Position numbers and translations under genes: made by a program. Shown here piece by piece: positions 38,203-62,921 of a DNA stretch of 64,000 bases. Position 1 is the first letter of the stretch; each line of letters begins with the position of its first letter. The notes beneath the pieces were generated by a model. The model searched no databases. It saw only the letters and a program-made list of their open reading frames with translations, and was not told where the DNA came from. The DNA is from Bradyrhizobium sp. AT1 (GTDB lineage Bacteria; Pseudomonadota; Alphaproteobacteria; Rhizobiales; Xanthobacteraceae): the NCBI RefSeq assembly GCF_001590795.1, contig NZ_JXDL01000001.1, positions 2,096,421 to 2,160,420 on the forward strand. The letters run 5' to 3'.

Positions 38203-38964
38203 TCAAAACTGAACCCCTCGCGTGAGGGCGCCGTCCACAACGAGGTTGGTTCCCGTGATGAAACTAGCGGCGCGGCTGGCGAGGAAGACCGCTGCGTTGG
38301 CCATTTCCTGCGGCGTCCCCATCCGCCCCGTTGGGTTGAGCGCCAGCGCGGTCTTGTAGAGCTCGGGGTTGTTGTCCTTGATCATGTCCCAGACGCCGCC
38401 GTCGAAATAGGTGTTGCCTGGCGAGACCGAATTGGCGCGGATGCCCTTTGCGGCGAGCTGATTGGCGAGGCCTTGCGTGTAGTGGATGATCGCCGCCTTG
38501 AAGGTGCCGTAGGGACCGGCGGCGAAATCGACCTCGCGCCCCGAGACGCTCGATATGGTCACGATCGCGCCGGCAGCGCTCTTCTCAAGATAAGGCATGG
38601 CCGCATTCACCAGCCGGACCGTGCCCATCATGTCGGTCGCGAATTCCTTCTCCCAGCTTTCGTCATCCTGTCCGATCGCAAGCGCGCTAACATTGGCGAC
38701 GACGACGTCGATGCCGCCGAGCTTTGCCGCCATGTCTTCGACCCAGGCCTTCAATACGGCCGCATTGGCGACGTCGACCGCGCCGCCGAAGGCTCCAACG
38801 CCCTTGGCCTTGAGCGCGGCGACCGTGCTCTCGACCTCGGCGAGGTTGCGGGCGCACACACCGACATTGGCGCCTTCGGCGGCAAATGTCTCGGCGATGG
38901 CCCGGCCGATTCCCTTGGTGCTGCCGGTAACAAGAACCTTGGCATCCTTGAGTCCCAGATCCAT
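38203..38964 (-). CDS. SDR-family oxidoreductase (FabG-like)
   Basis: Dehydrogenase of about 254 residues with the cofactor motif TGSTKGIGRAIAETF, a catalytic Ser in TISSVSG and the YGTFK (YxxxK) pair. ATG 38,964 fits the family start; in-frame sequence further upstream is not family-like. It is the last gene of the amide operon, 19 bases after the nitrilase stop. Its role next to nitrilase and formamidase is not clear. Confidence 0.88.
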   Translation of the reverse strand: MDLGLKDAKVLVTGSTKGIGRAIAETFAAEGANVGVCARNLAEVESTVAALKAKGVGAFGGAVDVANAAVLKAWVEDMAAKLGGIDVVVANVSALAIGQDDESWEKEFATDMMGTVRLVNAAMPYLEKSAAGAIVTISSVSGREVDFAAGPYGTFKAAIIHYTQGLANQLAAKGIRANSVSPGNTYFDGGVWDMIKDNNPELYKTALALNPTGRMGTPQEMANAAVFLASRAASFITGTNLVVDGALTRGVQF

Positions 38965-38983
38965 GTTCAGATTCCTTTTTGGT

Positions 38984-40723
38984 TCAGTAATTGTTCGCGA
39001 CGGCCTTGACCAATCCGCGATAGCTGTGCGGCATGCGCATCGAGACCAGATCCTTTCGGCGCACGACATTGGTCGGATAGACGCTGTCGAGATTGGTGGT
39101 GTCGACCAAAGCGGTTGCAAGGCCCGTGCCGCCGGCCGCAATCGCCTCACGCCGCGGAAACGCGAACGTATCAGGGCCGAACACGCCGCTCAGCCCGGGA
39201 TAGAAGCGTTCGGGATCGGCGACATTGGCGAAGGCGACAAACAAGTTGTTCTCGCCGGCGCGAACGCGCAGATGATGCCAGTGATGCGGATCCGGCCCTG
39301 TGGGAATCGGCTTCGGCTGCTCGACTTCCGTGCCGGCATGCGCCGAGCTGAAGCGGCCCTTGATCGCGGCAGGACAGGCGATGAGATCGCAGCCGCGCAG
39401 CGCCAGCACCCGGCCCGCCTCGGGAAACGAGGCATCGTGTCCGATCAACAGCCCGATTCGGCCGATCGGCGTGTCGACGACGGTCCAGCCCTCTCCGGGC
39501 GTCGCCCAGCTTCGCTCGCCGGCGGTAAGATGCGTCTTGCGATAGACCGAGATGTCCCCATCCGGAGCAACCAGGCAGGCGCTGTTGTAGAGCGTGCCGC
39601 CGGCGCGCTCCGCAAGGCCGCAGACGAGATAGAGACCGAGCTCCGCGGCGAGCTCCTCAAGACGATCGGTCACTGGACCGGGTATCGGCTGCGCCGACGT
39701 CGCGGGATCGCCGAGACCGGTGACCGCAAGCTCCGGAAACACGACGAGATCCGCACCCTCCGCGCTGGCCTTACGCGCGAGTGCCGCGATCTCCTCGAAA
39801 TTCTGGTCGATGTCGTCGCGAGGCGCAAATTGCGCGACGCTGACGCGTGACGTCTTGCCGGGCGGCCACGGCTCATGGCCGTAGAGACCGAAGAAGTCAC
39901 GCGGATTCCAGCTGAACGTGTCGGTCAGAAGCTCCGGATAGAGCTCCGGCCGGCGCTGCGAGAAAACGGCCTCGCCAAGCACGCGGCGGGCACGCGCGGC
40001 GTCGAGGTCGATCTCCGACAGCAGCACGCCGTCGCCCTTGTCGAGCACGGCGATCACCTGCCCGTCCGGCGCGATCACGCAGCTGCCGCCGCTGAACTGC
40101 ACGGTCCGCTCCAGCCCCCACCGATTGCTCTCGATGACATAACAACCGTTCTCGAACGCGCGGCTGATCCAATAAGGCGCCGGCGTGCGCTCCGCCAGCC
40201 AGTTCGAAATGTGGCAAATGACGTCGGCGCCGCCGAGCGCCATCAGCCGCGCGGTCTCCACGAAATGGATGTCCATGCAGATCAGCAGCGCGATCCGCCC
40301 GATCGGCGTGTCGAACACCTGATTGTGCAGATCGCCCGCCGCCGCCCATTTCGGCTCGGAGATGTAGGGATGCGTCTTGCGGTGGCGGCCGACGATGCCG
40401 TCGGGCCCGATCAAAACGGCCGAATTGAAGTAGATGCCGTCCTGGTCGACCTCAGGCATGCCGACAACGATATAGCAGTCGTGCCTGGCCGCCAGCGCCG
40501 CAAAGCGGTCCGTGGTCGGCCCCGGAATCGCCTCGACGAAGGGGGCGACCTCGGCACGGTCGAACCAGCAATAGCCGGTCGTGCCCATCTCCGGCGTGAC
40601 GATCAGCTTTGCACCGGCCTCCGCCGCCTGCCCGCAAAGCTCAAGCAGGCGCGCGACGTTGCGCTCCTTCTCGAACATGACAGGCTCAAACTGGACGGCG
40701 GCGACTTTATGCTTGGTGGACAT
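38984..40723 (-). CDS. Tandem two-domain nitrilase-superfamily amidohydrolase
   Basis: Protein of 579 residues made of two carbon-nitrogen-hydrolase domains (about 5-275 and 293-575). The first has the full catalytic set: Glu45 (TPEMG), Lys116 (RHRKTHPY) and Cys149 (LLICMD). The second keeps Glu331 (FPELA) and Lys396 (YRKTHLT), but the nucleophile position is Gly428 (LLIGHDASFPE). The C-terminal domain is therefore probably inactive and structural or regulatory. The active half should hydrolyse an amide or nitrile. Stand-alone nitrilases are half this length. Confidence 0.87.
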   Translation of the reverse strand: MSTKHKVAAVQFEPVMFEKERNVARLLELCGQAAEAGAKLIVTPEMGTTGYCWFDRAEVAPFVEAIPGPTTDRFAALAARHDCYIVVGMPEVDQDGIYFNSAVLIGPDGIVGRHRKTHPYISEPKWAAAGDLHNQVFDTPIGRIALLICMDIHFVETARLMALGGADVICHISNWLAERTPAPYWISRAFENGCYVIESNRWGLERTVQFSGGSCVIAPDGQVIAVLDKGDGVLLSEIDLDAARARRVLGEAVFSQRRPELYPELLTDTFSWNPRDFFGLYGHEPWPPGKTSRVSVAQFAPRDDIDQNFEEIAALARKASAEGADLVVFPELAVTGLGDPATSAQPIPGPVTDRLEELAAELGLYLVCGLAERAGGTLYNSACLVAPDGDISVYRKTHLTAGERSWATPGEGWTVVDTPIGRIGLLIGHDASFPEAGRVLALRGCDLIACPAAIKGRFSSAHAGTEVEQPKPIPTGPDPHHWHHLRVRAGENNLFVAFANVADPERFYPGLSGVFGPDTFAFPRREAIAAGGTGLATALVDTTNLDSVYPTNVVRRKDLVSMRMPHSYRGLVKAVANNY

Positions 40724-40736
40724 GATCCGGCCGACC

Positions 40737-41726
40737 TCAAACGAGATAAGATTTCTTGATCGAGGCGCCGAGCGTATATTTGGGATCGACCATGTTGCCG
40801 AGGCGGATGCGGCCGGCCTGGGTCAACAGCATGTAGGCGTCGATCTCGTCAAAGCCGTAGTTGGCCGCCATCCAGCGGCACAGCTCGCGATAGGCAATGC
40901 GGGCCGCATCCTCCATCGGCCGCGCCGAGCCGATAGTCATGATGAAATCCCTGGTTTCGAGCCGCGGCCAGGCGATGGTCCAGTTCTTGATGAGGTCGAT
41001 CTGCACGGTCGTCACGGTCGGATGCTCAATGGCGACGCCGCAGAGCTCGCCGTCGCCTTGCGCGGCGTGGCAATCACCGAGATAGAGCAGCGCGCCCTTG
41101 GTGTTGACCGGAAGGTAGATGACGGCCCCGACGCCGACATCCGGCAGGTCCATGTTGCCGCCGTAATAGTCCGGAACCAGCGAGGAAATCGCCTCGATCT
41201 CGGGCGACGTGCCGATGGTTCCGATGAAAGGCTCATAGGGCAGCGTGATCTTGTCGTTCCATTTCGTGCCGGTTTTCGCATCGATCTCGAGCTTCTTGAC
41301 GCGCTCCGGCAGTGCCGGATTGAGCAGCGCCGTATTGCCCGTGCTGACCAAGCCGCCGAAGTCAGGCATGATGACTGTCGTGCCCCGCGGCTGCGGCCCG
41401 CGCGGCACGATGCTCTCAATATAGACCGCGAGCGCATCGCCCTTCTCGGCGCCGTTGACATGGATCGGCCCATTCTGCGGGTTGAGGAACGGGAAGTTGA
41501 GGATCTTCGACGGGCTGTCCGTTTCCTTCTTGATGGCGCCCTCGAACGCGTCGTGCGTCTCGGCGGCGACGACCGCACCGGGATCGACGGTCAGCACCGG
41601 CCCTACATAAGGACCGTAGACGTAGTGGTACTTGCCCTGCTCGGCCTCCGTGATCGTGTATTGCTTGCCACGCTCGCCCTTGGCGACGCCTTTGCGCGCC
41701 ATGATGGAATCGTTCTGCCAGGCCAT
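40737..41726 (-). CDS. fmdA: Acetamidase/formamidase family protein
   Basis: Formamidase-type amidohydrolase of about 330 residues. Family marks: HVNGAEKGDALAVYIESI in the N-terminal half and GDCHAAQGDGELCGVAIE in the C-terminal half. It hydrolyses formamide or short amides to ammonia and the acid. ATG 41,726 fits the family start; 31 bases separate it from the UrtE-like ATPase. Its place downstream of an amide importer and of amiC/amiR strongly supports a short-amide substrate. It is shorter than some FmdA proteins of about 400 residues, so the substrate may differ. Confidence 0.8.
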   Translation of the reverse strand: MAWQNDSIMARKGVAKGERGKQYTITEAEQGKYHYVYGPYVGPVLTVDPGAVVAAETHDAFEGAIKKETDSPSKILNFPFLNPQNGPIHVNGAEKGDALAVYIESIVPRGPQPRGTTVIMPDFGGLVSTGNTALLNPALPERVKKLEIDAKTGTKWNDKITLPYEPFIGTIGTSPEIEAISSLVPDYYGGNMDLPDVGVGAVIYLPVNTKGALLYLGDCHAAQGDGELCGVAIEHPTVTTVQIDLIKNWTIAWPRLETRDFIMTIGSARPMEDAARIAYRELCRWMAANYGFDEIDAYMLLTQAGRIRLGNMVDPKYTLGASIKKSYLV

Positions 41727-41757
41727 TGCTGTTCTCCTTGGTTGGGCGTCTTTTCTT

Positions 41758-42486
41758 TCAAACTGCCAGATGGCGGCGCATCTCCGCCTCGTCATCGAGG
41801 GCGGATCGACCGAGACTTGCAACGATACGACCCTTGTCCATGACATAGCAGCGCTGCGCCATGGCGCGGATCATGTCGAGATTCTGTTCGACCAGGATAA
41901 TGGTCACGCCGGTCCTGCGGTTGAGCTCGACCATGTTGCGCGCGATGTCTTGGACGATGTTGGGTTGGATGCCCTCCGAGGGCTCGTCGAGCAGAATCAG
42001 ATTGGGATCGGCAATCAGCACCCGTCCGATCGCGAGCTGCTGCTGCTGGCCGCCGGACATGGTGCCGGCACGCTGGTGCCAGCGCTCTTCGAGGATCGGG
42101 AAGGCCTCGACGATCTTGCGCCGCCCCGCCTCGGGAATGCGGCCACCCTTGATCGCGGCGCCGACAGCGACGTTCTCGCCGACGGTGAGGCGCGGAAACA
42201 CGTCGCGCCCCTGCGGCACATAGCCCATGCCGAGGCGCGCCCGCTTGTGCGCCGGCAGTGTCTCCACCGCCTCGCCGCGATAGACGATCGAGCCGCTCAT
42301 CGCCGGTACGAGGCCGATCAGGCTCTTCATCAGCGTCGATTTGCCGACGCCGTTGCGTCCGATCACGGCGACGATCTCGCCTTCCCGCACCTCGATCTCG
42401 AGGCCTTGCAGCACCGGCTTGCCGCCATAGCCGGCGCGAAGGCCCAGCGTCGAGAGGATCACTTCCTTGCGCGGCATATCAAGCAT
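41758..42486 (-). CDS. UrtE-like ABC importer ATP-binding protein (amide/urea system 1)
   Basis: ATPase of about 242 residues. Walker A GRNGVGKSTLMKSLIG, signature MSGGQQQQL and Walker B LILLDEPSEGIQPNIV are present; the last segment is typical of UrtE. ATG 42,486 overlaps the stop of the preceding ATPase by eight bases; ATG 42,477 is a second option. Part of an importer with the order binding protein, permease, permease, ATPase, ATPase. Confidence 0.9.
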   Translation of the reverse strand: MLDMPRKEVILSTLGLRAGYGGKPVLQGLEIEVREGEIVAVIGRNGVGKSTLMKSLIGLVPAMSGSIVYRGEAVETLPAHKRARLGMGYVPQGRDVFPRLTVGENVAVGAAIKGGRIPEAGRRKIVEAFPILEERWHQRAGTMSGGQQQQLAIGRVLIADPNLILLDEPSEGIQPNIVQDIARNMVELNRRTGVTIILVEQNLDMIRAMAQRCYVMDKGRIVASLGRSALDDEAEMRRHLAV

Positions 42487-43195
42487 GGGCCTGCCCCAGA
42501 TAGATCGCCGCCACGCGCTCATCGGCCACGATCTCGTCGATCGAGCCTTGCGCAAACACCTGACCGAGATGCAGCACCGTGACGCGCTGAGCGACCTGAC
42601 GCACGAACGCCATGTCGTGCTCGATCGCCAGCACAGTCATGCCGCCGGCATTGAGCCGTTGCACCATCTCGCCGGTCATGTGAGTTTCCTCCGGTGACAT
42701 GCCGGCAGTCGGCTCGTCCAGCAGCAGGAGGCGCGGCTTCAGGCTGATCGCCATGCCGATCTCCAGCCATTGCTTTTGGCCGTGGCTGAGATTGCCCGCC
42801 GTCTGCGCCTGCTCAGCTTCGAGCCCGAGAAAACCGAGCTGCCGGTCGATCTCGGCATCAAGCTCGGCGCCGCGATGCCGGCTCTGCAAGGCGATCTCGA
42901 GGTTCTGGCGCACGGACAGGCCCTTGAAGACGCCCGGCACCTGGAACTTGACGGACAGGCCACGATGAATTCGCGCAAAGGATTTCAGCGCCGTGATGTT
43001 CTCACCCGCGAAAACGATCTCGCCACTGCCCGGATGATGCTCGCCCAGGATCAGCCGGAACAACGTGCTCTTGCCCGCACCATTCGGACCGATCAGGCAA
43101 TGGATCTCGCCTGGCTCCAATGTGAGGTTCACGGCGTTGGTGACGTGAAGGCCGCCAAAATGCTTGTTGAGATCGCGCAGCTCCAGCAGTGACAT
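42479..43195 (-). CDS. UrtD-like ABC importer ATP-binding protein (amide/urea system 1)
   Basis: ATPase of 238 residues. Walker A GPNGAGKSTLFRLILG, Walker B LLLLDEPTAGMSPEET and a signature reading LSHGQKQWLEIG, the variant found in UrtD proteins. ATG 43,195 overlaps the UrtC-like stop (ATGA), which fixes the start. Confidence 0.91.
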   Translation of the reverse strand: MSLLELRDLNKHFGGLHVTNAVNLTLEPGEIHCLIGPNGAGKSTLFRLILGEHHPGSGEIVFAGENITALKSFARIHRGLSVKFQVPGVFKGLSVRQNLEIALQSRHRGAELDAEIDRQLGFLGLEAEQAQTAGNLSHGQKQWLEIGMAISLKPRLLLLDEPTAGMSPEETHMTGEMVQRLNAGGMTVLAIEHDMAFVRQVAQRVTVLHLGQVFAQGSIDEIVADERVAAIYLGQAHA

Positions 43196-44259
43196 CAGCC
43201 GGCCCTCTGCGTGAAGCGGGCCGCCAGGCGACCGATCCAGTTCATCGCCCCGAGCACAAGACCGTTCGGCGCGATCAGGACCGTGAGCACGAGCAGCACG
43301 CCCATGAAGACCAGCGCGTACTGGCTGCCGTAGATCGTCAGCGCCTGGAAGGCGGCGAGCACCACCAGCGTGCCGACCACCGTCGAGGTCAGATCGCTGC
43401 GGCCGCCAACTGCGACCCAGATGAGCGGCAGCGCCGCCGCCGTCATGCCCATGCTCGATGGCGTGATGTACTGCCCCCACGCGGTGTAGAGCACGCCGGA
43501 GAGTCCCGCGAGCGCGGCGCCGACGACGAACGTTATGAGCTGGTATCTGCGGATGTCGTAGCCGAGCATCTCCGCCCTCTCCGGGTTCTCGCGGATCGCA
43601 ACGATGACGTTGCCGAACGACGAGTTCATCAGGATGCGCAGCGCGAGATAGACGAAGACCAGAAGGCCCAGCACGAAATAGTAGAGCCCGACATCGGCGA
43701 ACAGCACGATCGGTTCGCCCGGCCAGGGGATAGTGAGCGGCGGCATCGCGCTCATCCCGTTGAAGCCGTTCAGCCGTGCAGTGCCGATGTGCCATTCCGG
43801 CCCTGCGGTTTGCGCCATGAAGCGCTCCAGCATCAGGGTCACGGCAAGCGTGACGATGCCGAGGAAGACGCCCGCTATGCGGCCGAAGAACATGAAATAG
43901 CCGAGCAACACCGCAAACAACGCGGCGATCGCCACCGCAATCACCAGCGCCAGCAGCGTAAAGCCGTAGCCCGAGCCGAAATTGAGAGTGAGGACGCCGT
44001 AGCCGTAGCCGGCGATCCCGAAGAACGCCGTTTGCCCGAAGGAGAGTGAGCCGCCATACCCCCAGATCACGCAAAGACTGAGCGCGATGAAGACCCAGAC
44101 GAGAAAATACACGGTGTTGCCGACAGTGTAACCGTCGCTGAACAGCGGATAGGCCAACGCGACCGCGAGCACGAACGCAAACAGGCTCCAGAATCCGGGA
44201 CCGCGACCGACGGTCTGCGGGCCTTCAAGACGGCGAAACAGCGAGAACAATCCAGTCAC
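43195..44259 (-). CDS. UrtC-like ABC importer permease (amide/urea system 1)
   Basis: Membrane protein of 354 residues with about ten helices and the LivM/UrtC hallmark GYGGSLSFGQTAFFGIAGYG near residue 68. A coupling-loop segment VAIRENPERAEMLGYD lies near 222. It forms the channel with the UrtB-like subunit; a 15-base gap separates the two genes. Confidence 0.9.
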   Translation of the reverse strand: MTGLFSLFRRLEGPQTVGRGPGFWSLFAFVLAVALAYPLFSDGYTVGNTVYFLVWVFIALSLCVIWGYGGSLSFGQTAFFGIAGYGYGVLTLNFGSGYGFTLLALVIAVAIAALFAVLLGYFMFFGRIAGVFLGIVTLAVTLMLERFMAQTAGPEWHIGTARLNGFNGMSAMPPLTIPWPGEPIVLFADVGLYYFVLGLLVFVYLALRILMNSSFGNVIVAIRENPERAEMLGYDIRRYQLITFVVGAALAGLSGVLYTAWGQYITPSSMGMTAAALPLIWVAVGGRSDLTSTVVGTLVVLAAFQALTIYGSQYALVFMGVLLVLTVLIAPNGLVLGAMNWIGRLAARFTQRAG

Positions 44260-44274
44260 GACGCCATCACTCCG

Positions 44275-45147
44275 TCAGGTACGCTCGCGCAGCACGAAAC
44301 CGGAGATGCCTTTCGGCAGAACCCGGACCACGATGATGACTGCGACCAGCAGGCCGATCTGGCCGAACAATTGCCCCTGCCAGGATGTCATCACGGATTT
44401 CACCACGGCAAGCACGCCGCCCGCCGGCGCCGTGCCGAGGAAGACGTCCGCGCCGCCGATCACGACCGTGACGAAAGCCTCCATGATGAAAGTCGCCCCC
44501 ATGGTCGGCACCAGCGTCATAGTCGGCGCGTAGAGTCCGCCGGCGAGGCCAGCGAGCCCTGCTCCGCAGGCAAAGGTGAGGCTGTAGATCAGGCGCGTGT
44601 CGACACCGAGCGCCGCCGCCATGTGCGGCACCTGGATGGTGGCCCGCGCCAGCACGCCGAAGCGCGTCCAGTTAAATAGCGCGTAGAGCGCGGCGAGTAC
44701 GCCGAGCGCCGCGCAGAACAGCACGAGGCGGTAGATCGAATAGGAGTAGTCGCCAACCTGAAAACTGCCGAACGGGGTGCCGACACCAGCCATGGTCGAG
44801 CCGACCATGATCAGCGTGCCCTGCGTCGCGATCAAGCTGAGTCCCCAGGTCGCGACGATCGTGTCAAGCGGACGGTCGTAGAGATGGCGGATCACCGCAA
44901 GCTCGACCAGGACCCCGACCAACGCCGATACGACAGTGCCCGCCAGGATACCCAGCGGCAGCGGCAGGCCGGCATGCACGGCCGCCGCGGTAACATAGGC
45001 TCCGCACATGATGAACTCACCATGCGCAAGATTGATCACGCCCATCATGCCGAAGATCACTGCGAGCCCGCAGGCCGACAGCACCAGAAACGCAAAGGCG
45101 TCGCCGAATTGATAGAGCGCCGAAAAGACGTGGGTCGCGATGTCCAT
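44275..45147 (-). CDS. UrtB-like ABC importer permease (amide/urea system 1)
   Basis: Membrane protein of 290 residues with about eight helices and the LivH/UrtB hallmark GVINLAHGEFIMCGAY near residue 36. A coupling-loop segment LARATIQVPHMAAALGVD lies near 170. A long hairpin separates it from the upstream binding-protein gene. Confidence 0.9.
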   Translation of the reverse strand: MDIATHVFSALYQFGDAFAFLVLSACGLAVIFGMMGVINLAHGEFIMCGAYVTAAAVHAGLPLPLGILAGTVVSALVGVLVELAVIRHLYDRPLDTIVATWGLSLIATQGTLIMVGSTMAGVGTPFGSFQVGDYSYSIYRLVLFCAALGVLAALYALFNWTRFGVLARATIQVPHMAAALGVDTRLIYSLTFACGAGLAGLAGGLYAPTMTLVPTMGATFIMEAFVTVVIGGADVFLGTAPAGGVLAVVKSVMTSWQGQLFGQIGLLVAVIIVVRVLPKGISGFVLRERT

Positions 45148-45187
45148 GAACCAACCGATGTGTGGGAAGACGCGGTGAGATATCCGT

Positions 45188-45222
45188 GATCGTCCCGGCC
45201 CGCCGCGAGGGTCGGGACGATC
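45188..45222 (-). other. 14-base intercistronic stem-loop after the binding-protein gene
   Basis: GATCGTCCCGGCCC and GGGTCGGGACGATC pair over 14 positions (one G-T type wobble) around a 7-base loop. There is no T-run on the minus strand. The position, just 3' of a binding-protein gene and before its permease, is typical of stems that protect an abundant upstream mRNA. Confidence 0.7.
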
Positions 45223-45231
45223 AACCGCCGG

Positions 45232-46485
45232 TCAGGGTTTCGGCGGCGGATTCGACGGCGTGTACTGCGCCATCGGATCTTTCTTGGTGAGATCGCAGCC
45301 GGCTTCCCCCAGCCAGTACGGCTTGATGTCCTCCCAGGTCTTCGGAAAGGAGATCGAATGATCGGCGCCGACCTTGGCGAGATAGATCGTGTGGGACATG
45401 TGCTGACTCTTCGGGTCGATGCAGACCTTGCCTTCCGGCGCGTCCATGCAGACGTCGCCCATCGCGATCACCTTCCGAATGTCCTCGCGCTTGGTCGACT
45501 TCGCCCGCTCCACCATCTGCTTGTAGAGATAGACAGCCAGATAGGAGTTCTCGGCCTCCTGGTTCACGTAGGGTTCACTCGGGAACTTCGCCTTGAACTT
45601 GGCGTAAAACTCCTTGCTCTTCGGCGAGTCGATTTCCTCGATGTAGTTTGTGGTGACGTACATGTCCTTCAGGCTCGGCGGCTTGAAGCGCTTGTGCTCG
45701 TAGCCCTGGCCGACGTTGACGGAGGATGCCATCGGCAGGTTGACGTTGGCAGAAGCCGCCTGCTCATAATAGGAGGCCTGCGCTGTGCCGACCAACAGCG
45801 TGACTACGAAGTCTGGCTTGGCCTTCTGGATGTTCTGGATGCTCTGCGAGAACTGCGACACGCCGAGCGGGATGAACTCCTCGCCGGCCATCTTGCCGCC
45901 GTTCTCCTTGACGATCTTGCGGACCCATTCCGCCGAGATCTGGCCGAAATTGTAGTCGGCGGCGAGCGTGTAGACGTTCTTCCCGTACTTCTCCATCATG
46001 TAGGGAATGAGCGTCGAGAACTGTTGCTCCGGTACTGCGCCAGTGACGATCATGTGGCCGTCGCAAACGCCGCCTTCGTACTGGTTGTTGTAGAAGGCAA
46101 AGCCGTTGAACTGGTCGACGATCGGCCGATACGCCTCGCGCGAAGCCGAGGAAAATCCCGCGAACACGACATCGACCTTGTCGCGCTGGAGCACGCGGCG
46201 CATGAACTCCTGGTAGCGGGTGTTGTCGGACTGGGTGTCGTAAGGGACGAGCTCCAGCGGCCGGCCCATGATGCCGCCCGCCTTGTTGATCTCGTCCGCG
46301 GCGAGCTGGATGGCGTGGACCTTGCCGATCGTGGCCGCCGCGAAGTCGCCGGACTGATCCTCCAGCACCCCGAGCTTGATCGGATTCTCCGCTGCGATTG
46401 CAAACTGTGATCCGACAGGTGATCCGAGGACAAGCGTCCCCGTGAGGGCTGCGGCACGCAGCCCCCGCAATACAGACTTGCTCAT
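45232..46485 (-). CDS. Amide/urea-type periplasmic binding protein (FmdD/UrtA-like, system 1)
   Basis: Protein of 417 residues. A signal peptide of about 31 residues is followed by the type I binding fold starting IKLGVLEDQSGDFAAATIGK. The segments SASREAYRPIV and NNQYEGGVCDGHMI line the ligand cleft and are shared with the system-2 protein (SASREAVRPTF, NVLYEGGVCDRNTF). It should bind a short-chain amide or urea. It lies directly after amiR (10-base gap), so it is induced by the AmiC/AmiR system. Confidence 0.87.
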   Translation of the reverse strand: MSKSVLRGLRAAALTGTLVLGSPVGSQFAIAAENPIKLGVLEDQSGDFAAATIGKVHAIQLAADEINKAGGIMGRPLELVPYDTQSDNTRYQEFMRRVLQRDKVDVVFAGFSSASREAYRPIVDQFNGFAFYNNQYEGGVCDGHMIVTGAVPEQQFSTLIPYMMEKYGKNVYTLAADYNFGQISAEWVRKIVKENGGKMAGEEFIPLGVSQFSQSIQNIQKAKPDFVVTLLVGTAQASYYEQAASANVNLPMASSVNVGQGYEHKRFKPPSLKDMYVTTNYIEEIDSPKSKEFYAKFKAKFPSEPYVNQEAENSYLAVYLYKQMVERAKSTKREDIRKVIAMGDVCMDAPEGKVCIDPKSQHMSHTIYLAKVGADHSISFPKTWEDIKPYWLGEAGCDLTKKDPMAQYTPSNPPPKP

Positions 46486-46495
46486 TTTGCTTCTC

Positions 46496-47161
46496 CTAAA
46501 TGGCTCGCTTGTTGCCGCCTTGCAGCATGATGCCGGTCGTGCGGCCGGTCGTGTCGGGTGGCTTCACCCGCTTGCTCAGAAACTCTTCGCAGTAGAGTTC
46601 CATGTTCTGCCGCGCGCGCATGCTTTCGCGACGGAGCTGGGAATAGGCACTTTCCTCGTCGAGGCCGCCCTGCTGCATCAGCAGGATCACGGCCCGGATC
46701 ACCGCGCGGCGGCCGCGGCGGCGCTCCTCGAGGTCCTGCAGGCGGTCGCTCATTTCGGCGCGCAGCAGGAACTGGTTGATGCCCATGAACAGAGACGTGT
46801 AGACGGCGCCGCCATGCACCGGCTTGCGCAGGAACGAGGTCGCACCGAGATTGACCAGCGCTTTCAGCCGGCTCGGCGCCTCGACGCCGACGAGGCCGAT
46901 CACCGGCACGGGCGGCAGATGCGAGGTCGGATTGAGCTCGATCACGACAGCGCCCTCGAGATCGCCGTCGACGAAAAGGATATCGCGGTCGGCCTGGAGA
47001 CTCGCAATGTCGATCTGGGCGCGGCCATCGACGATCTCGGGGTATTCTGTGGAGACGCCGAGCTTGGCCAGTGTCGTTTCGAGCGCGCTCTCCCATCCAC
47101 CGCGCCGGGTGATGACGATGGCGCGGCCACCCTTGAAGTTCTGAAGCAGTCGAGAGCTCAT
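46496..47161 (-). CDS. amiR: AmiR-like ANTAR-domain transcription antiterminator
   Basis: Protein of 221 residues. An N-terminal pseudo-receiver domain (about 12-125) is followed by a coiled coil (about 135-150) and an ANTAR RNA-binding domain (about 150-205) with RRAVIRAVILLMQQGGL and AYSQLRRESMRARQNMELYC. AmiR binds a hairpin in the leader transcript and prevents termination when AmiC releases it. The start overlaps amiC by four bases. A terminator lies directly upstream of amiC, the expected target. Confidence 0.88.
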   Translation of the reverse strand: MSSRLLQNFKGGRAIVITRRGGWESALETTLAKLGVSTEYPEIVDGRAQIDIASLQADRDILFVDGDLEGAVVIELNPTSHLPPVPVIGLVGVEAPSRLKALVNLGATSFLRKPVHGGAVYTSLFMGINQFLLRAEMSDRLQDLEERRRGRRAVIRAVILLMQQGGLDEESAYSQLRRESMRARQNMELYCEEFLSKRVKPPDTTGRTTGIMLQGGNKRAI

Positions 47162-48318
47162 GATTGCACCACTTTCAAAAGCGGAGAGCGCATTGCGCTG
47201 GCAAAGCGCGGCGACGACTGGACGAGATAGGGATCGGGCGCGATCGGCTCACGGGATTCCAGCAGCACTTCGAACTGCCCGTTCGCAGCCGAGCGGCCGA
47301 TCCGTGGCGTGAGCCAGGCGTGAAAGGTCTGTCGGTCGATACGGACTTCGCCTTGCGGCGCGCGGAGCCGTCGGTCGGCCACGGCAGCGCGCACCTTGCG
47401 CGCATCGTCAGTGCCGGCCTGAGACAGCGCGGCTGCGAGCAGCTTGACGGCGATGTAGGAGGACTCCGCATCGGCCGACGAGACCGGCCCGTCCGGGAAG
47501 GATTGCGCATAGGCCTCGATGAACGCGGCATTCTCCGGCGAATTCAGCGACGAGAAATAGACGCTTGACGACAGATGCCCGTCGACCGCGTCGAGGCCGA
47601 TCTCCGGCAATTCCGGTTCTGATAGCGTGCAGCTCGCGACCGGAATTTCCGCAGCCTGATCGATGCCACGCGCTCGGCAGGCGGCGCGGAACGCGCGGAA
47701 GAACGCATAGGCGCTGGTGCCGATCAGATTGTTGAAGACGAAGTCCGGGCGCTGGTCGATGATCGCCTCGATGACCTGGTCGACCTCGATGTCGCCTACC
47801 GAGAGATAGCGTTCGGCGAGCACCGTGCCTCCGTGCGCAATCAGCGCCTCGCGGAAGATCCGGTTGTTCTCCCAGGCCCAGATATAGTTCGAGCCAACGC
47901 AGAAGGCCCGCAAACCGACGCGGGATGCGAGATAGTCGACAAGTGGCAACACGTGCTGGTTTGGCGCCGCACCGGTGTAGATGACGTTGTCGGAACTCTC
48001 GAAGCCTTCGTAATGCGAGGGATACCACAACAGCCCGTCGAACTTCTCGAAGCACGGAATCACTTCCTTGCGGCTCGACGAAGTGTAGCAGCCGACCACC
48101 TGGCGGATGCCGGAGCCAAGCAGCTCCAGGCTGAGCGAACGGTAGCGCGGCAGCTCGCCGGAGGGATTGACGACGACCGGCTCGAGCTCGACGTCGGAGC
48201 TGCAGGCATTGACCTCCTGAAACGCCAACAATGCGCCATTGAGGATCGAACGCGCAACGACGCTATAGGAGCCCGTCGTCGAGAACATCACGCCGATACG
48301 ATAGTGCTTGCGCGTCAT
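47158..48318 (-). CDS. amiC: AmiC-like cytoplasmic amide sensor and negative regulator
   Basis: Protein of about 386 residues with the type I periplasmic-binding fold but no signal peptide, as in AmiC. It starts MTRKHYRIGVMFSTTGSYS. Ligand-site segments include YTSSSRKEVIPCFEKFDG, SHYEGFESS and GSNYIWAWENNRI. AmiC holds AmiR inactive until a short amide binds. ATG 48,318 is preferred; an earlier in-frame codon at 48,348 would start inside the terminator. It is the first gene of the operon. Confidence 0.88.
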   Translation of the reverse strand: MTRKHYRIGVMFSTTGSYSVVARSILNGALLAFQEVNACSSDVELEPVVVNPSGELPRYRSLSLELLGSGIRQVVGCYTSSSRKEVIPCFEKFDGLLWYPSHYEGFESSDNVIYTGAAPNQHVLPLVDYLASRVGLRAFCVGSNYIWAWENNRIFREALIAHGGTVLAERYLSVGDIEVDQVIEAIIDQRPDFVFNNLIGTSAYAFFRAFRAACRARGIDQAAEIPVASCTLSEPELPEIGLDAVDGHLSSSVYFSSLNSPENAAFIEAYAQSFPDGPVSSADAESSYIAVKLLAAALSQAGTDDARKVRAAVADRRLRAPQGEVRIDRQTFHAWLTPRIGRSAANGQFEVLLESREPIAPDPYLVQSSPRFASAMRSPLLKVVQS

Positions 48319-48329
48319 CACTCGATCCA

Positions 48330-48368
48330 AAAACAAAAAAACGCCCACCGGCTGTCAAGCCGAGGGCG
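48330..48368 (-). terminator. Leader intrinsic terminator upstream of amiC
   Basis: On the minus strand a hairpin (CGCCC/GGGCG outer, CGGCT/AGCCG inner, TGAC loop; 48,368-48,342) is followed by seven T, one G and five more T. It ends about 12 bases before amiC and reads toward it, so it would stop leader transcripts unless antiterminated. Confidence 0.82.
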
Positions 48369-48450
48369 CCCTCGCCGCCAACCAAACACGCGCTTGCGCG
48401 TGGCGTTGGAAATGGTTTGAACTTGTCGCGTTGACGGGCTGTCTTGCCCG
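48361..48450 (-). promoter_or_regulatory. Candidate antitermination hairpins in the amiC leader
   Basis: On the minus strand, three stems precede or overlap the terminator. The first is CGGGC-AAGACA-GCCCG with a six-base loop (48,450-48,435). The second is CACGCG-CAAG-CGCGTG (48,402-48,387). The third is the palindrome CGAGGGCGCCCTCG (48,374-48,361), which shares bases with the terminator's first arm. The third and the terminator exclude each other. The first loop starts with A as in ANTAR-bound RNA, but the loops do not fully match the A1/G4 pattern. Confidence 0.4.
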
Positions 48451-48563
48451 ACGCTTGCCCGTTACGGTCGTTGAGATCGAATGCGATGTCAAGCGCGTTG
48501 TTGCAGCGGAGATTGCCACGAATCTTATCGAGGTGCGGCAAAACTGTGCAGAGGAGGCGCGTG

Positions 48564-48815
48564 CTATGCCGGCCATCGAACAAGCCGGTCGCCCGCCATC
48601 GCGATGACGCTCCAGTCATGCAGCATCGGAACCATTTCGGCCGCGGCCCATGCAGCATGCTGATCGACGTATGCGGGCTGGCGGGCGCCTCGATGCGCCG
48701 TGAACACGACAAAGGTGCCACTGTCCCAGTTGCCGACATCCAAGATGTAGCGTGCGACCGCGCCATAGGCCGTCGAGCATACGACCATCCGGATCTCCAA
48801 GGCCGATATCGCCAA
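48564..48815 (-). CDS. Possible small hypothetical protein
   Basis: An 83-residue frame (or 74 residues from the inner ATG at 48,788) with GC-rich third positions and no family I recognise. It has Trp and Tyr spread through a mixed sequence ending in GDRLVRWPA. It overlaps a gene remnant on the other strand at its 5' end and lies in the gap between ureD and amiC. It may be a chance frame. Confidence 0.3.
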   Translation of the reverse strand: MAISALEIRMVVCSTAYGAVARYILDVGNWDSGTFVVFTAHRGARQPAYVDQHAAWAAAEMVPMLHDWSVIAMAGDRLVRWPA

Positions 48816-48951
48816 CCTCGAGAAATATCATCAGGCGCTGGCGTCAGCAGAACGCGGCGGGCGCTGGCGTGAGGCCGTGGAAGTAAACTGGCAATCCCAC
48901 CACACGCTCTACCAGGCCGCCGACGCACAGGTTCGACGATGGGCCCTCTTG
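48769..48951 (+). pseudogene. Remnant of a GntR/FCD-domain regulator gene
   Basis: The plus strand encodes a fragment of about 61 residues containing ADIANLEKYHQALASAERGG, then [18 protein letters not shown]. This matches the middle of FCD effector domains (charged helix, then NxxFHxxLYxAA with Phe replaced by Ser). There is no DNA-binding domain: a stop (48,766-48,768) precedes it. Its 3' end runs under the last residues of ureD on the other strand. Confidence 0.6.
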
Positions 48952-49727
48952 ATGATCTCGACTGCTGCTCGCAGCGATCTGAGGTCCAGCGCCGCGAGCC
49001 GCACGCCGAGCCCCGAGGAAGCCGGCATCACGCTTGCAGCGGCATACAGCCCGGATATTTCGTCCAACGCGACCATGAGCGCCGCCTGAGTGGCTACCAG
49101 ATCGTGCGGCGACGGCCGCACGAGATACGCCGATCCAAAGGCACGGTAACCACGAAATATAGCGTCCTGCGGACGGTACAGACGGGAGCGATCGACCATC
49201 AACGGCTCGGGAACCGATCGCCGCAGACGGAACACCGATTCCAGCTCGCGAAAGCCGCGAGCATGACCGCCTGGATCATGCATCGTGAAGGCATCGACGA
49301 CAAGCGCGCTGGCGTCGTCGGCGCAATCGAGCTCGATGCATTGGCGGAGTGCGGCATCAGGGAACATGATGCGCGGCTCGGGCAGATATTCGAGGCTGCT
49401 GCCACTCGAGACGTGCAGCTTCACCGTCTCCGTTGCAAGGACGGCCGGATCCGCGCGGTGCACGGATGTTGCGCCCTGATTGGTCAAGCAGACATCCGTA
49501 CCGGGATGGAGTACGAAGCGCTGCGTCAGGCAGTCTTCGCCGTGGACTGCGCCGCTTCCGGTCTGCACGATGACGCTCAGGCGACCCGGCCGGTCCGCAT
49601 CGACATGGAAACTGCGCGTCAGAACGAACGGCCACGCGAACATGCGCCGCTCAATGACCGTCCGACCGGCCCGGCGAACGAAGCTGAGATCGAGCCGCGG
49701 CTCGTCCGTTGTCGCGTCGCGCGTCAC
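48909..49727 (-). CDS. ureD: Urease accessory protein UreD
   Basis: Protein of 272 residues of the UreD/UreH family, which with UreF and UreG delivers nickel to the urease apoenzyme. Visible family marks are [20 protein letters not shown] near residue 57, [11 protein letters not shown] near 82 and [14 protein letters not shown] near 112. It is the last gene of the urease operon and overlaps ureG by four bases. The last 15 or so residues lie on DNA shared with a regulator remnant, so the tail may be newly acquired. Confidence 0.9.
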
Positions 49728-50374: not shown

Positions 50375-52077
50375 CGCAGCATGTACCTCCGCGCGAGCGG
50401 CACCCTGGTTGCGGGCGGACACATCAGAAGCTTGCCATCCGCCCGCACTTCGAATGTCTGCGGATCAACCTCCACATGCGGCTTGGCGACGTTGCGGACC
50501 ATATCGGTCTTGCGCAGCTTCCGGACATTCTTGATCTGAACGAGATCGCGGGTCAGTCCATGCTTGCGCCCGATATCGGCCTCTAGCGCAAGCTTTGACA
50601 CGAAGTTGACGCCCAGCCGCGCCGGCGCGGCGCCCAGCGCGCCCCACATCCGCTTCTGGATCATCGGTTCCGACAGGCCGAGGCTGCCATTGCCGTCACC
50701 CATTGCGGCCCAGACGACGAAGCCGTTCTTGATCACCATGTAGGGCTTGATGCCGAACGAAGCACGCGGCCACAGCACAAGATCGGCCATCTTGCCGACC
50801 TCGACCGAGCCGATCTCGTGGTCGATACCGACCGCGATGGCTGGGTTGATGGTGAGTTTTGCAATGTAACGCTTGATGCGCTCATTGTCGGCCCGCGCCG
50901 TCGTCTCTTCAGGCAGGCGGCCGATGCGATCCTTCATCACGCTGGCAAGCTGCCAGCATTTGGCGACGTTCTCGGCGAGACGGCCCATGCCCTGGGTGTC
51001 CGTGCCGAAGATCGAGATCGCACCCATGTCATGGAGAAAGTCTTCCGCGGCCATGGATTGCGCGCGCACGCGCGCCTCGCCAAACATGACGTCCTCGGGT
51101 GCGTTGTAGTTGAGCTGATGACAGATCATCGTCATCGGCACCCCCTCCTCCATGCCGTAGGAAGTATAGGGGTTGGTTGGATTGGTGGAGGACGGGATAA
51201 CGTTGTCCCACGACACGACCTTGAGCAGGTCCGGCGCGTGACCGCCGCCGGCGCCCTCGACGTGGTACATGTGGATGGTGCGCCCGTCCACCGCAGCCAT
51301 CGTGTCCTCGCAGAAGCCGTACTCGTTGATGGAGTCAGTATGGAGGTGAACCGCAAAATCGTTGCGGTCGGCCGCGACCAGACTCTTGTCGATCACGTCG
51401 GGCGCCGCGCCGAAATCTTCATGGATCTTGACCGACATGCCGCCCGAGGCGACCGCCTCCTCGACCGCTTCGGGATTGGACCCGCCGCGTCCGAACAGCG
51501 CGCAATTGAGCGGCGAGAACTCGATTGCCTGAAGGAATCGCCCGAACGTCGCGGCCGCACCCGTCCCGACGTCGAAGACGGGGCCCGACCCGTTGCCGAT
51601 CATCGTCGTGATGCCGCCGGCCAGGGCGTGATCCGACTGCTCTGGTGAGATCAAATGAGCGTGCGACTCGATCGCGCCGGCCGTGACGATGAAGGGACCG
51701 CCGGCGATCGGTGCGGTGCTGTGACCCACGACCATGTCAGGATGCACGTCCGGCATCACGTCGGGATTGCCCGCCTTACCGATTCCGACGATGCGGCCGT
51801 CGCGGATGCCGATGTCGGCCTTCACGATGCCGGTAACAGCGTCGACGATGGTCGCGTTCTTGATCACGACGTCGAGGGCCTTGTGCGACGAGGTGCTGTG
51901 CGCGTTGACGCCCTCGCCGTCGCGCAGGTTCTTTCCGGCCCCAACCAGCAGCTCGTGTCCGTAGGTCGTGTAGTCGTGCTCGATCTCGGCAAGCAGCTTG
52001 GTATCGGCCAGCCGGACCAGATCGCCCCTGGTCGGTCCGTAGAGCTCGCCATAGGCGCGTCGCGTCAGGATTGCCAT
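50371..52077 (-). CDS. ureC: Urease subunit alpha
   Basis: Nickel-dependent urea amidohydrolase of 568 residues, full family length. Metal and active-site residues are present: HAH near 139, the carbamylated Lys217 and His219 in VKIHED, His246, His272 in YHVEG, Cys319-His320 on the flap and Asp360. From Lys217 on these fall at the positions known from Klebsiella UreC. Residue 321 is Gln where CHHL is usual, and the region between the first His pair and Lys217 is about five residues shorter. ATG 52,077 is preferred to TTG 52,083. Confidence 0.95.
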
Positions 52078-60572: not shown

Positions 60573-61622
60573 TTATCGACGCGTAATGATCGAGAAGTCG
60601 TAGCCGTCGACCCGCGCCAGATAGATGGGGTGCCGACCACCGACGACGGATCGCGCTTGATCGCCCCGGGCCGTGCGCTGCTGGAATGTTCGGCCGTACA
60701 GGCGCATCAACTCGCGCGCATCGAGGCTCGCCGCTTCCTCGATCAGGGCTGCGAGCGAGTAGATTCCTTCGTAGCAGGATTGACCAAAGGCATTCACGGG
60801 CGGGGGACTATCGCCGAACGCCGTATGATAGCGCTCCAGGAACGCACCATTGTTGCGCGAGCGGATCGACGCATAGTAGCTTGAGGTCGCGTAGAGGTTT
60901 TCGGTCGCGTCGACATCGAGGCCATACGCCACGGTCTCGTCGATCGCCGAAGAAAATCGTAGGACGCGCGAGCTCAATCCTGCCGCGTAGAACGCGCGAT
61001 TGAATGCGATGCAGTCGAGCCCCAGGAAATACGGAAGAACGACGTCCGAGCGCGTGGCTTTGATCCGCTCCACGATCTCATCGAAATCGTGCCGACCAAC
61101 GGGCAGGTAGTGCTCTCCCGTCACCGTCCCCCCAACGCGGGCGATCAGAGTTCGCGCGATCCGTAGCGACGAGCGCGGCCATACGTAGTCGTTGCCGCAG
61201 AGGAAATAACGGCGCGCGTGCTTCGCTTCCGAAAGCCATTGAACCGCGGGCGCAAGAAGCTCGTCGGCTGTCTCGCCGGTCGCCATGACATCCGACGAGG
61301 GTGAGTGCCCTTCGAACTGGGGAGTATAGATGAAGGGAACCCGGCCAGCGGCGACGCGCGCAACGAGATCGCGCGCAAAGCTGGGCAACATCCCGACGAT
61401 GCCGTCGACACCATCGATGTCGATGGCGTCGCGCGCAGCCCGGCCCGCGCTCGCGCCGGTCTCTCCGGCATCCACCACGCGCAGCTCGACCGGACGCCGC
61501 AGTATGCCGGACATTTTGTTGATTTCGTCGACAGCCAAGCGGCCGCAGGCCTCCGCCGATGGGGCCCAAAGTCCCGCTGCTCCGCTCTGCGGGATGAGCA
61601 GACATATCAAAACGCTGCGCAA
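60573..61622 (-). CDS. AmiC-like sensor protein without an adjacent AmiR
   Basis: Type I binding-fold protein of about 349 residues that resembles AmiC: no clear signal peptide, start RSVLICLLIPQSGAAGLWAP, and ligand-site segments EINKMSGILRRPVELRVVD and FLCGNDYVWPRSSLRIARTL. The start is a TTG (61,622) with GGAG nine bases upstream; that GGAG lies in a stem-loop. It precedes the system-2 binding protein, as amiC precedes system 1, but no ANTAR gene follows. It may be a sensor for system 2 or a second binding protein. Confidence 0.72.
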   Translation of the reverse strand: MRSVLICLLIPQSGAAGLWAPSAEACGRLAVDEINKMSGILRRPVELRVVDAGETGASAGRAARDAIDIDGVDGIVGMLPSFARDLVARVAAGRVPFIYTPQFEGHSPSSDVMATGETADELLAPAVQWLSEAKHARRYFLCGNDYVWPRSSLRIARTLIARVGGTVTGEHYLPVGRHDFDEIVERIKATRSDVVLPYFLGLDCIAFNRAFYAAGLSSRVLRFSSAIDETVAYGLDVDATENLYATSSYYASIRSRNNGAFLERYHTAFGDSPPPVNAFGQSCYEGIYSLAALIEEAASLDARELMRLYGRTFQQRTARGDQARSVVGGRHPIYLARVDGYDFSIITRR

Positions 61623-61649: not shown

Positions 61650-61869
61650 TTACGACTCACGAATCGTGCCAACGGCCGACCGGTCTCGGTAACGCCCGTT
61701 CTGCCGGGAAAGCACTCAGTCTCGGAGGCGGATTGCCTTTTTTTCGACCGCAGGCGGCAGCATCAGCCCGTCCATTAGGCAATCGGAGCCAAGGCTGCTT
61801 TCCACTTGCTCGATTTTGCATTCCAAGGCAAAGGTTGAAATCTCAAGTAATTCGCCGAGGGCTGACAAA

Positions 61870-62334
61870 GTGGATCTACCTGACCTCATCCGGGGCGTGA
61901 ATCGCCGGCTCGAACAGGTGTTGGAGGCGGAGCTCAAGCCTAAGGGCGTGTCTCTGCATCAGTACCGTGTGCTCGAGGCGCTGACTGAACGGAATGGGCT
62001 GCCGATGGGCGATCTGGCAACACGGCTCTTTGTCGATGGTCCGACGCTCACAAAAATCATCGATAAGATGGTTGAATCGGCCGAGGTCTATCGTGGACCC
62101 GACCCACATGACCGGCGCAAGGTTCTGATCTTCCTCTCGCGCAGGGGAGCTGCGCATTTCGAGGACGTTGGCCCGCTGATAACGTCCATTCAGCGAGAGA
62201 TTTTCGACAGACTTGGCAAATCGGATGCCGCAGCTTTGACTAACCTGCTCTCAGAGCTGCTCTGCGACACTGTTTCCTGGCCCTCACTTACGTCTCACGG
62301 GCAGGCCCGTTCGCGCGTTACTCCAGAGCAGTGA
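61870..62334 (+). CDS. MarR-family transcriptional regulator
   Basis: Winged-helix regulator of about 154 residues. MarR marks: GVSLHQYRVLEALTERNGL, LATRLFVDGPTLTKIIDKM and DPHDRRKVLIFLSRRG. GTG 61,870 has a GAGGG about 7 bases upstream; TTG 61,816 without one would add 18 residues. It is divergent from the AmiC-like gene and may control the system-2 operon. No copy of the other MarR palindrome is seen here. Confidence 0.85.
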   Translation: MDLPDLIRGVNRRLEQVLEAELKPKGVSLHQYRVLEALTERNGLPMGDLATRLFVDGPTLTKIIDKMVESAEVYRGPDPHDRRKVLIFLSRRGAAHFEDVGPLITSIQREIFDRLGKSDAAALTNLLSELLCDTVSWPSLTSHGQARSRVTPEQ

Positions 62335-62880
62335 CCATCCGCCACAACGTCTCGACCAGCACGGCGCAGCCCTTGTCGAGGGCTTCAGGTGCCGTGAATT
62401 CGCGCGGATTGTGGCTGAGTCCGCCCTGACTCGGTACGAATATGAGCGAAGCCGGGATGCGTTTCTGGATCGCGAGCACATCATGCCCCGTGACGGTCTT
62501 GAGTGTCATGGCTTTGCAGTGGAGATCGCTCGCGACGGCCATGATCAACTCAACGCCGGCCGGATCGCGGAAGGGAGCCGACCGCCTCTCGTCGGCAGCG
62601 TCGAAATGCCCGCTCCGATCTCGCCGGCCTCGCGCTCGATGCTGCGGCACCCTATTGAACGACCAAAGGCGACGACAACGAGCTTGGATTTTCTGCCACC
62701 AAAGACGGGCGCCTAAGCGATCTACTGTCGGCTCCGCGCGCTCACGTCCCGCTTCAAAAGGCATGCTTACGTTGGCGGACGGAAGAGCTTTCGTAATCTC
62801 CCGGTGCTGGCTGCGCTGACCGTGGAATCCGGCATGACCAAGCTGAAGACCACGACGTTCGGCATTCGCGGCGACGGGCC
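62318..62880 (-). pseudogene. Broken M20-family N-carbamoylase (HyuC-like)
   Basis: The last 90 or so residues read as a normal HyuC C terminus, including TGHDVLAIQKRIP and FVPSQGGLSHNPREF. Upstream, the family continues in another frame (SIEREAGEIGAGISTLPT), then returns in the first frame (SAPFRDPAGVELIMAVA), so at least one frameshift has occurred. The N-terminal catalytic half with the metal ligands is missing. It adjoins the hydantoinase gene, its usual partner. Confidence 0.7.
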
Positions 62881-62921
62881 GACAAACTGACCGCTGTCGC
62901 GTGGCGAGGTCGCGCACAAGA

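Follow-up and report, generated by a model that had tools for sequence, protein, structure and literature searches.

A probable ANTAR-type antitermination leader ahead of its own regulator genes in Bradyrhizobium sp. AT1

Background

A leader of about 120 nt lies on the minus strand between ureD and amiC of Bradyrhizobium sp. AT1. Does it only end the urease transcript, or does it decide whether amiC and the genes behind it are transcribed? A first-pass annotation of the window (the whole 64,000-nucleotide stretch analysed here, whose positions are used throughout) took the second view and proposed a switch read by an ANTAR protein. We argue that the leader is very probably an ANTAR-type antitermination switch run by the AmiR encoded just downstream. 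This reading is supported by distant relatives with canonical loops and by a covariance model, which show homology to ANTAR targets.

The leader and its hairpins

Along the minus strand the region begins with a CTTGAC box at 48488-48493, which resembles a -35 element, and a weak -10-like block, GACCGT, at 48464-48469. About 415 nt (48494-48908) separate ureD from the box. P1 follows at 48428-48454, with an outer stem GCGT/ACGC, an inner stem GGGC/GCCC and the hexaloop AAGACA. The linker between P1 and P2 holds a middle helix at 48378-48409, CCAAC/GTTGG with ACGC/GCGT on top. P2, the predicted antiterminator hairpin, is GGC-GAGGGC-GCC at 48365-48376. The intrinsic terminator, GCGCCC-T-CGGC..GCCG-GT-GGGCGT with a run of seven T, spans 48335-48369 and reads into amiC, whose ATG is at 48318-48316. 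This ATG is our choice of start; the frame is open from a GTG at 48348.

Most of these parts had been noticed in the first pass. The T-run hairpin it placed about 12 bases before amiC is the terminator, and a second T5 (48333-48329) ends 10 nt ahead of the ATG. The palindrome it saw overlapping the terminator's first arm is GAGGGCGCCCTC at 48362-48373, and the useful competing stem in it is P2. Its upstream hairpin with a six-base loop, CGGGC-AAGACA-GCCCG at 48435-48450, sits inside the longer P1. The middle helix was absent from that annotation and is found between its hairpins. The 3' arm of P2 (GCC) sits in the 5' arm of the terminator, so P2 and the terminator are mutually exclusive on paper.

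Folding alone gives only moderate evidence for these structures. The terminator has a z of -3.15 as a 43-nt segment (3 of 200 shuffles as good) and -1.93 as a 51-nt segment (8 of 200). P1 has -2.04 (6 of 200), the middle helix -1.92 (10 of 200) and the whole 141 nt -1.67 (13 of 200). A consensus scan listed no promoter and, in place of the terminator with its interrupted stem, gave the middle helix.

The genes behind the leader

amiC (47158-48318, minus strand like all the genes of this run) encodes a ligand sensor of 386 aa with a periplasmic-binding fold (PF13433, E 6.3e-131) and, judged by eye, no evident signal peptide, as expected of a cytoplasmic sensor. It matches P. aeruginosa AmiC (1pea) at E 2.3e-70 and urea-binding proteins more weakly (E 7e-48 to 6e-47), so its ligand could be an amide or urea. 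amiR (46496-47161) encodes an antiterminator of 221 aa. Its ANTAR domain is clear (PF03861, E 8.8e-12, 45.1 bits with a cut-off of 27.3), and its N-terminal domain scores 20.8 bits against PF21332 (AmiR_N), below the cut-off of 27. By profile it matches AmiR 1qo0_D at E 6.2e-8 and EutV 6wsh at E 5.5e-5. The available text of PMC8934654 names Tyr164, Arg168, Met172, Asn173, Arg175 and Arg177 as RNA contacts of EutV. If the EutV numbering is shifted by two against the chain, as we assume, then Tyr164, Arg168, Met172 and Arg175 correspond to Y173, R177, M181 and R184 of AmiR, which are invariant in 14 AmiRs, while Asn173 and Arg177 correspond to R182 and N186 and differ.

A urea-type ABC importer follows at 41758-46485, with a substrate-binding protein, two permeases and two ATPases by Pfam; the binding protein scores 626.8 bits against TIGR03669 (cut-off 494.8). 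Behind it, at 38203-41846, Pfam finds an acetamidase/formamidase-family protein, a double CN-hydrolase protein and an SDR. The first of these is far below the cut-off of the NCBIfam formamidase model. The importer, judged by spacing, and the genes through the SDR would be co-transcribed with amiC-amiR, and the operon probably ends with the last three. Annotated plasmids of Methylobacterium, Shinella, Paracoccus, Skermanella and Rhizobium show the same succession of an amiC-type gene, an ANTAR gene, the importer and acetamidase/formamidase. A sixth plasmid, from Palleronia, was read only as far as the importer and has the same order to there.

Elsewhere in the window an orphan AmiC-like gene without an AmiR (60576-61622, minus strand) lies upstream of a second urea-type importer, and a divergent MarR-family gene (61816-62331, plus strand) adjoins it. 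We take this pair to recall NhhC/NhhD of Rhodococcus. A short ORF at 62321-62917 (minus strand) matches only the second half of Peptidase_M20 and is perhaps a remnant.

Conservation of the leader

A search for AmiR relatives gave 50 loci. One is from Kaistia and the other 49 are from Bradyrhizobium, Tardiphaga, Rhodopseudomonas and one other Xanthobacteraceae genome; the closest AmiR, 95% identical, is from B. betae. In all 50 amiC abuts amiR, at least four T stand just before amiC, and a similar leader precedes the pair. Aligned, these leaders have the promoter box, P1, the middle helix, P2 and the terminator in common. Identical segments (L021, L028, L038, L051) were left out of this alignment, A1.

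Across 47 distinct leaders a structure of 27 pairs has standard pairs in 99.9% of its 1269 cells; with the partners shifted by 1-3 columns, 32.4-51.5% of cells are paired. Eight pairs have two-sided changes against 1.7 in shuffles, none of 500 being as high. These changes fall in P1, the middle helix and the terminator. The two helices of P1 are paired in 99.5% and 100% of cells; the middle helix (helices 3 and 4) and the terminator (helix 5) are each paired in 100% and have two-sided changes in three pairs each. The three pairs of P2 are invariant in the 47 leaders, so P2 is neutral as covariation evidence, neither for nor against. Conservation and covariation exclude a chance origin of the structures.

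At E 1e-30 AmiR relatives are present in 25 of 397 genomes of the order and 5 of 15 of the window's genus, with its own genome counted in both, and the distribution of the module in the genus is patchy. Of the 24 loci other than the window's own, covariance model R1 recovered the leader at 22, and at least four of these 22 (L053, L057, L058, L059) have an AmiR identical to one already used; the two exceptions are L076, an incomplete locus, and L077. R1 matched in 23 of 149 family genomes, and in 19 of the 23 the match stands before amiC. The weak matches in the other four (L099-L102) were put down to chance or ordinary terminators by ORF inspection. Within the window's own genome the next R1 matches after the amiC leader have E 2.7 and 9.5. 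No AmiR relative was found in viral contigs. A pattern scan of the leaders at 22 more loci (L110-L131, AmiR identity 25-34% where found) gave no consistent P1 or P2. These 22 and the duplicates L055, L078, L081, L083, L084 and L091 were left out of the loop and promoter counts below.

How the switch would work

In all 47 leaders the terminator state is the computed minimum-energy state. Forcing P2 costs 2.6-15.1 kcal/mol across them and 7.5 in the window, where the forced P2 closes to a tetraloop. Termination is therefore the predicted default. P1 is in both computed states in 40 of the 47 leaders, and the middle helix in 36. Since P2 is costly, some agent must hold it closed, and the neighbouring AmiR is the obvious agent.

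We propose the following route. Transcription would begin immediately 5' of P1. Left to itself, the nascent RNA would fold into the terminator and RNA polymerase would stop before amiC. Some readthrough would make a little AmiC and AmiR. AmiC would bind its ligand, which the gene content suggests is a short amide or urea, and AmiR would be released. Released AmiR could then bind P1, P2 or both and keep P2 closed, which would block the terminator and let amiC, amiR, the importer and the formamidase-family gene be transcribed. The leader that AmiR would open precedes amiR, so the switch would control its own regulator by positive feedback.

The probable promoter and alternative explanations

The simplest alternative is that the hairpin is only the 3' terminator of the urease cluster and that amiC is transcribed from elsewhere. 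It is true that ureD, on the same strand, ends about 455 nt upstream of P1 and that the consensus scan gave no promoter. The first-pass annotation had itself let its reading hang on a promoter upstream of the hairpin. Sequence evidence points to one: of 94 leaders (not all distinct), 88 have a CTTGAC box 43-44 nt 5' of the P1 inner stem, and the window's is among them. The exceptions are L019 at 46 nt, L134 at 41 with TTTACA, L135 at 47, L068, for which P1 was mis-picked, and L077 and L137, where no box was found. Next comes a -10-like block whose spacing hardly varies; most distant leaders have AGCCTA or similar there and the window has ACCGTA. This block is probably the -10, and the start site is probably just 5' of P1. 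P1, the middle helix and P2 are conserved, the first two with covariation. Similar leaders also occur where the upstream gene is unrelated or divergent. At none of the six plasmid loci is the upstream gene annotated as urease, and at two it is divergent; the hairpin is therefore more than the end of a urease transcript. We consider a mere urease terminator extremely unlikely.

It is worth considering whether the leader is an antitermination switch read mainly by another protein. The genome has a second ANTAR gene (C1:828405), whose product may be NasT-like, and the window loops depart from the consensus. Against this, 19 family genomes carry the element in cis to amiC-amiR, it is present in some form at five of the six plasmid amiC-amiR loci, and the window's own genome has only one convincing element. 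We regard reading by the second protein, or by both, as unlikely. A leader that acts on translation or mRNA stability instead of termination is less likely still. In its favour, Shinella and Rhizobium plasmid relatives (L133, L136) keep the promoter box, P1 and P2 without a T run, about 120 nt upstream of amiC, and these two are possibly a translational or Rho-dependent form. However, at least four T follow P2 in 88 of the 92 leaders scored, the window's included, and the window's probable ribosome site is outside the hairpin. L067 has three T only. L077 and L137 have amiC-amiR, a P2-like hexaloop and a T run, and no -35 or P1 by the patterns used; they were left out of the 92-leader loop counts for want of the -35 pattern. 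Antitermination by the neighbouring AmiR is the explanation we carry forward.

Descent from ANTAR targets

The window leader has the general form of an ANTAR target. P1 and P2 are two hairpins with stems of at least 3 bp and hexanucleotide loops, and P2 overlaps the 5' arm of an intrinsic terminator. Rfam 15 gave no match up to E 5 in 48250-49000. Its sole match in the whole window is 5_ureB_sRNA at 51634-51916 (plus strand, 42.1 bits, cut-off 40), antisense inside ureC, and is probably conservation of urease coding.

In the distant relatives the two loops are those of textbook ANTAR targets, for example AAAGAT/AGCGAC in L068. Alignment A3 holds 15 of these leaders, chosen for their linkage and R1 match without regard to the loops; two are nitrile hydratase leaders. 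A1 and G4 of P1 and G4 of P2 are invariant in all 15, and A1 of P2 is present in 12, which means that P1 has both bases in 15 of 15 and P2 in 12 of 15. The P1 pairs covary, although the overall count of pairs with two-sided changes does not exceed that in shuffles (85 of 500 as high). The upper stem of the terminator is poorly preserved, with 84% of terminator cells paired.

The first-pass annotation had suggested a covariance-model search for the element. Model R2 was built from the 15 leaders of A3, none of them from the window's genus as the tool groups genera, and it picks the window leader as the best match in the 7.5-Mb genome (E 5.3e-7). The next match (E 0.03) is on the strand opposite a permease-like ORF and was rejected, so by R1 and R2 no other AmiR target in this genome is convincing. 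Weak R2 matches elsewhere (L139, L160, L163, L164, L166) were likewise set aside by ORF inspection as chance or ordinary terminators. The R2 match and the canonical loops of the distant leaders imply that the window leader is a homologue of canonical ANTAR targets, though its own loops break the rule. Judged by its sequence kin, it is an ANTAR antitermination element by descent, but a departed one, placed before its own regulator genes.

Departures from the recognition rules

The rules for ANTAR recognition, A1 and G4 in both loops and a short linker, rest largely on EutV. The window leader follows neither. Its P1 loop, AAGACA, has A1 without G4, and its P2 loop, GAGGGC, has G4 without A1. The linker is 59 nt from the P1 inner stem to P2, or 51 from the outer stem. 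It runs to 29-67 nt in the 91 of 92 leaders where P2 was found, and part of it is helix in most. The middle-helix pattern is present in 34 of 34 leaders of the window's group and 27 of 27 other near relatives (61 of 61 together), and in 12 of 31 of the distant group.

The loops follow the same groups, with the caution that the rule used to pick P2 in these counts favours G4. In the window's group P1 has A1 in 34 of 34 leaders and G4 in 4, and P2 has G1 in 33 and G4 in 31. The 27 other near relatives have A1 in 25 and G4 in 21 at P1, and G1 in 26 and G4 in 21 at P2. Among the 31 distant leaders P1 has A1 in 30 and G4 in 31, and the P2 found in 30 has A1 in 25 and G4 in 30; both bases are present together in P1 of 30 of the 31 and in P2 of 25. 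In a 78-row AmiR tree, which has some weak forks and a root placed only for drawing, G4 of P1 is kept in 40 of 40 rows outside two clades. Inside them, the window's clade has it in 4 of 34 rows and the Rhodopseudomonas clade in 0 of 4. Most simply, this history would be two losses with a few regains.

Changes of this kind impair EutV function. Mutating bases of the A1/G4 type lowered EutV-dependent induction and binding (PMC3369931, available text), and lengthening the linker by 20 nt abolished EutV antitermination in vitro (PMC8934654, available text). One can imagine that the CCAAC/GTTGG helix would shorten the path from P1 to P2. We tentatively suggest, at somewhat less than even chances, a three-helix ANTAR element. 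The linker helix would replace the short linker and set the geometry of P1 and P2, base-specific reading of P1 would be lost, and P2 would antiterminate, helped by P1 only through its position; in other genera, AmiR of this kind would also open a divergent nitrile hydratase operon. If this is true, nature has made linker and G4 changes like those that weaken or abolish EutV function and has retained the switch. About ninety natural leaders keep the architecture and break the rules in defined clades, which makes them a test of the features that are needed and of the single-hexaloop model.

Second elements before nitrile hydratase genes

Nine genomes (G111, G170, G215, G293, G326, G363, G463, G483, G531) have a second, divergent element beside the first. 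We inspected the genes behind it in five (G170, G215, G293, G326, G531), which by the tool's grouping represent three genera in three families, and found nitrile hydratase beta and alpha in all five. The leaders at L104:8329-8420 and L103:7495-7586, both on the minus strand, are ANTAR-type, stand upstream of the nitrile hydratase beta-alpha genes and are back to back with amiC-amiR. Divergent nitrile hydratase leaders of the same type occur at L168, L169, L170, L180 and L181. A CbtA cobalt-transporter gene comes after the nitrile hydratase genes at L104. A distant second R2 match is present in G210. A text search of the literature, with subscription papers mostly outside it, gave no paper naming both ANTAR and nitrile hydratase. 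The prediction is that antitermination controls nitrile hydratase genes in some bacteria. The work also provides an RNA model with which amide, urea and nitrile operons of alphaproteobacteria can be searched; Rfam 15 had no match to the window leader.

Comparison with known systems

The ami operon of P. aeruginosa also has an AmiC sensor, an AmiR antiterminator and a leader terminator ahead of an operon that includes the regulators. The first-pass annotation had set the two apart, which is only partly right. The operon here does begin with amiC-amiR, behind which lie a five-gene urea-type importer and a formamidase-family gene, and it has no amiE at the head. But amiC and amiR are downstream of the leader in Pseudomonas too, so autogenous control is not new. 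Autogenous control of AmiC-AmiR is known in kind. Searching the literature by titles and the beginnings of abstracts, with subscription papers mostly outside the coverage, we found no description of this leader among the papers listed.

The eut, nasF and amiE leaders, as the available texts of PMC3369931 and PMC8934654 describe them, share much with this one. P1 is followed by P2, P2 is in the 5' arm of the terminator, the folds are mutually exclusive, an ANTAR protein is encoded and nitrogen genes are downstream. The distant relatives of the window leader share A1 and G4 in both loops with them. The window leader differs in that P1 lacks G4 and has an extra outer stem, and P2 lacks A1 and can close to a tetraloop. 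The linker differs too: it is 5-12 nt in eut leaders and 2-25 nt was allowed in an actinobacterial survey (PMC8164766, available text), against 59 nt with a conserved helix here. A prediction from 2012 had already placed ANTAR RNAs ahead of urea transporters (PMC3369931, available text).

Two other systems should be considered. A plasmid-borne acetamidase operon of Klebsiella sp. KOS9 has amiC, amiR, an ABC transporter and amiE (PMC13209695); the likeness, as far as its description goes, is AmiC, AmiR and an ABC transporter in one operon, and the available text describes no leader RNA. NasS-NasT of Paracoccus (PMC5424462) and Bradyrhizobium (PMC6759348), in the available texts, is likewise a sensor-antiterminator pair with leader hairpins before nitrogen genes. 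In Paracoccus the regulators are a separate unit upstream of the nasA leader (PMC5424462, available text), whereas here the leader precedes the regulators. G269 has the nas-like order, with regulators first and leader second: the end of amiC, amiR, a P1/terminator leader (R2 E 6.5e-4, P2 not canonical) and nitrile hydratase succeed each other at L167:14-2888.
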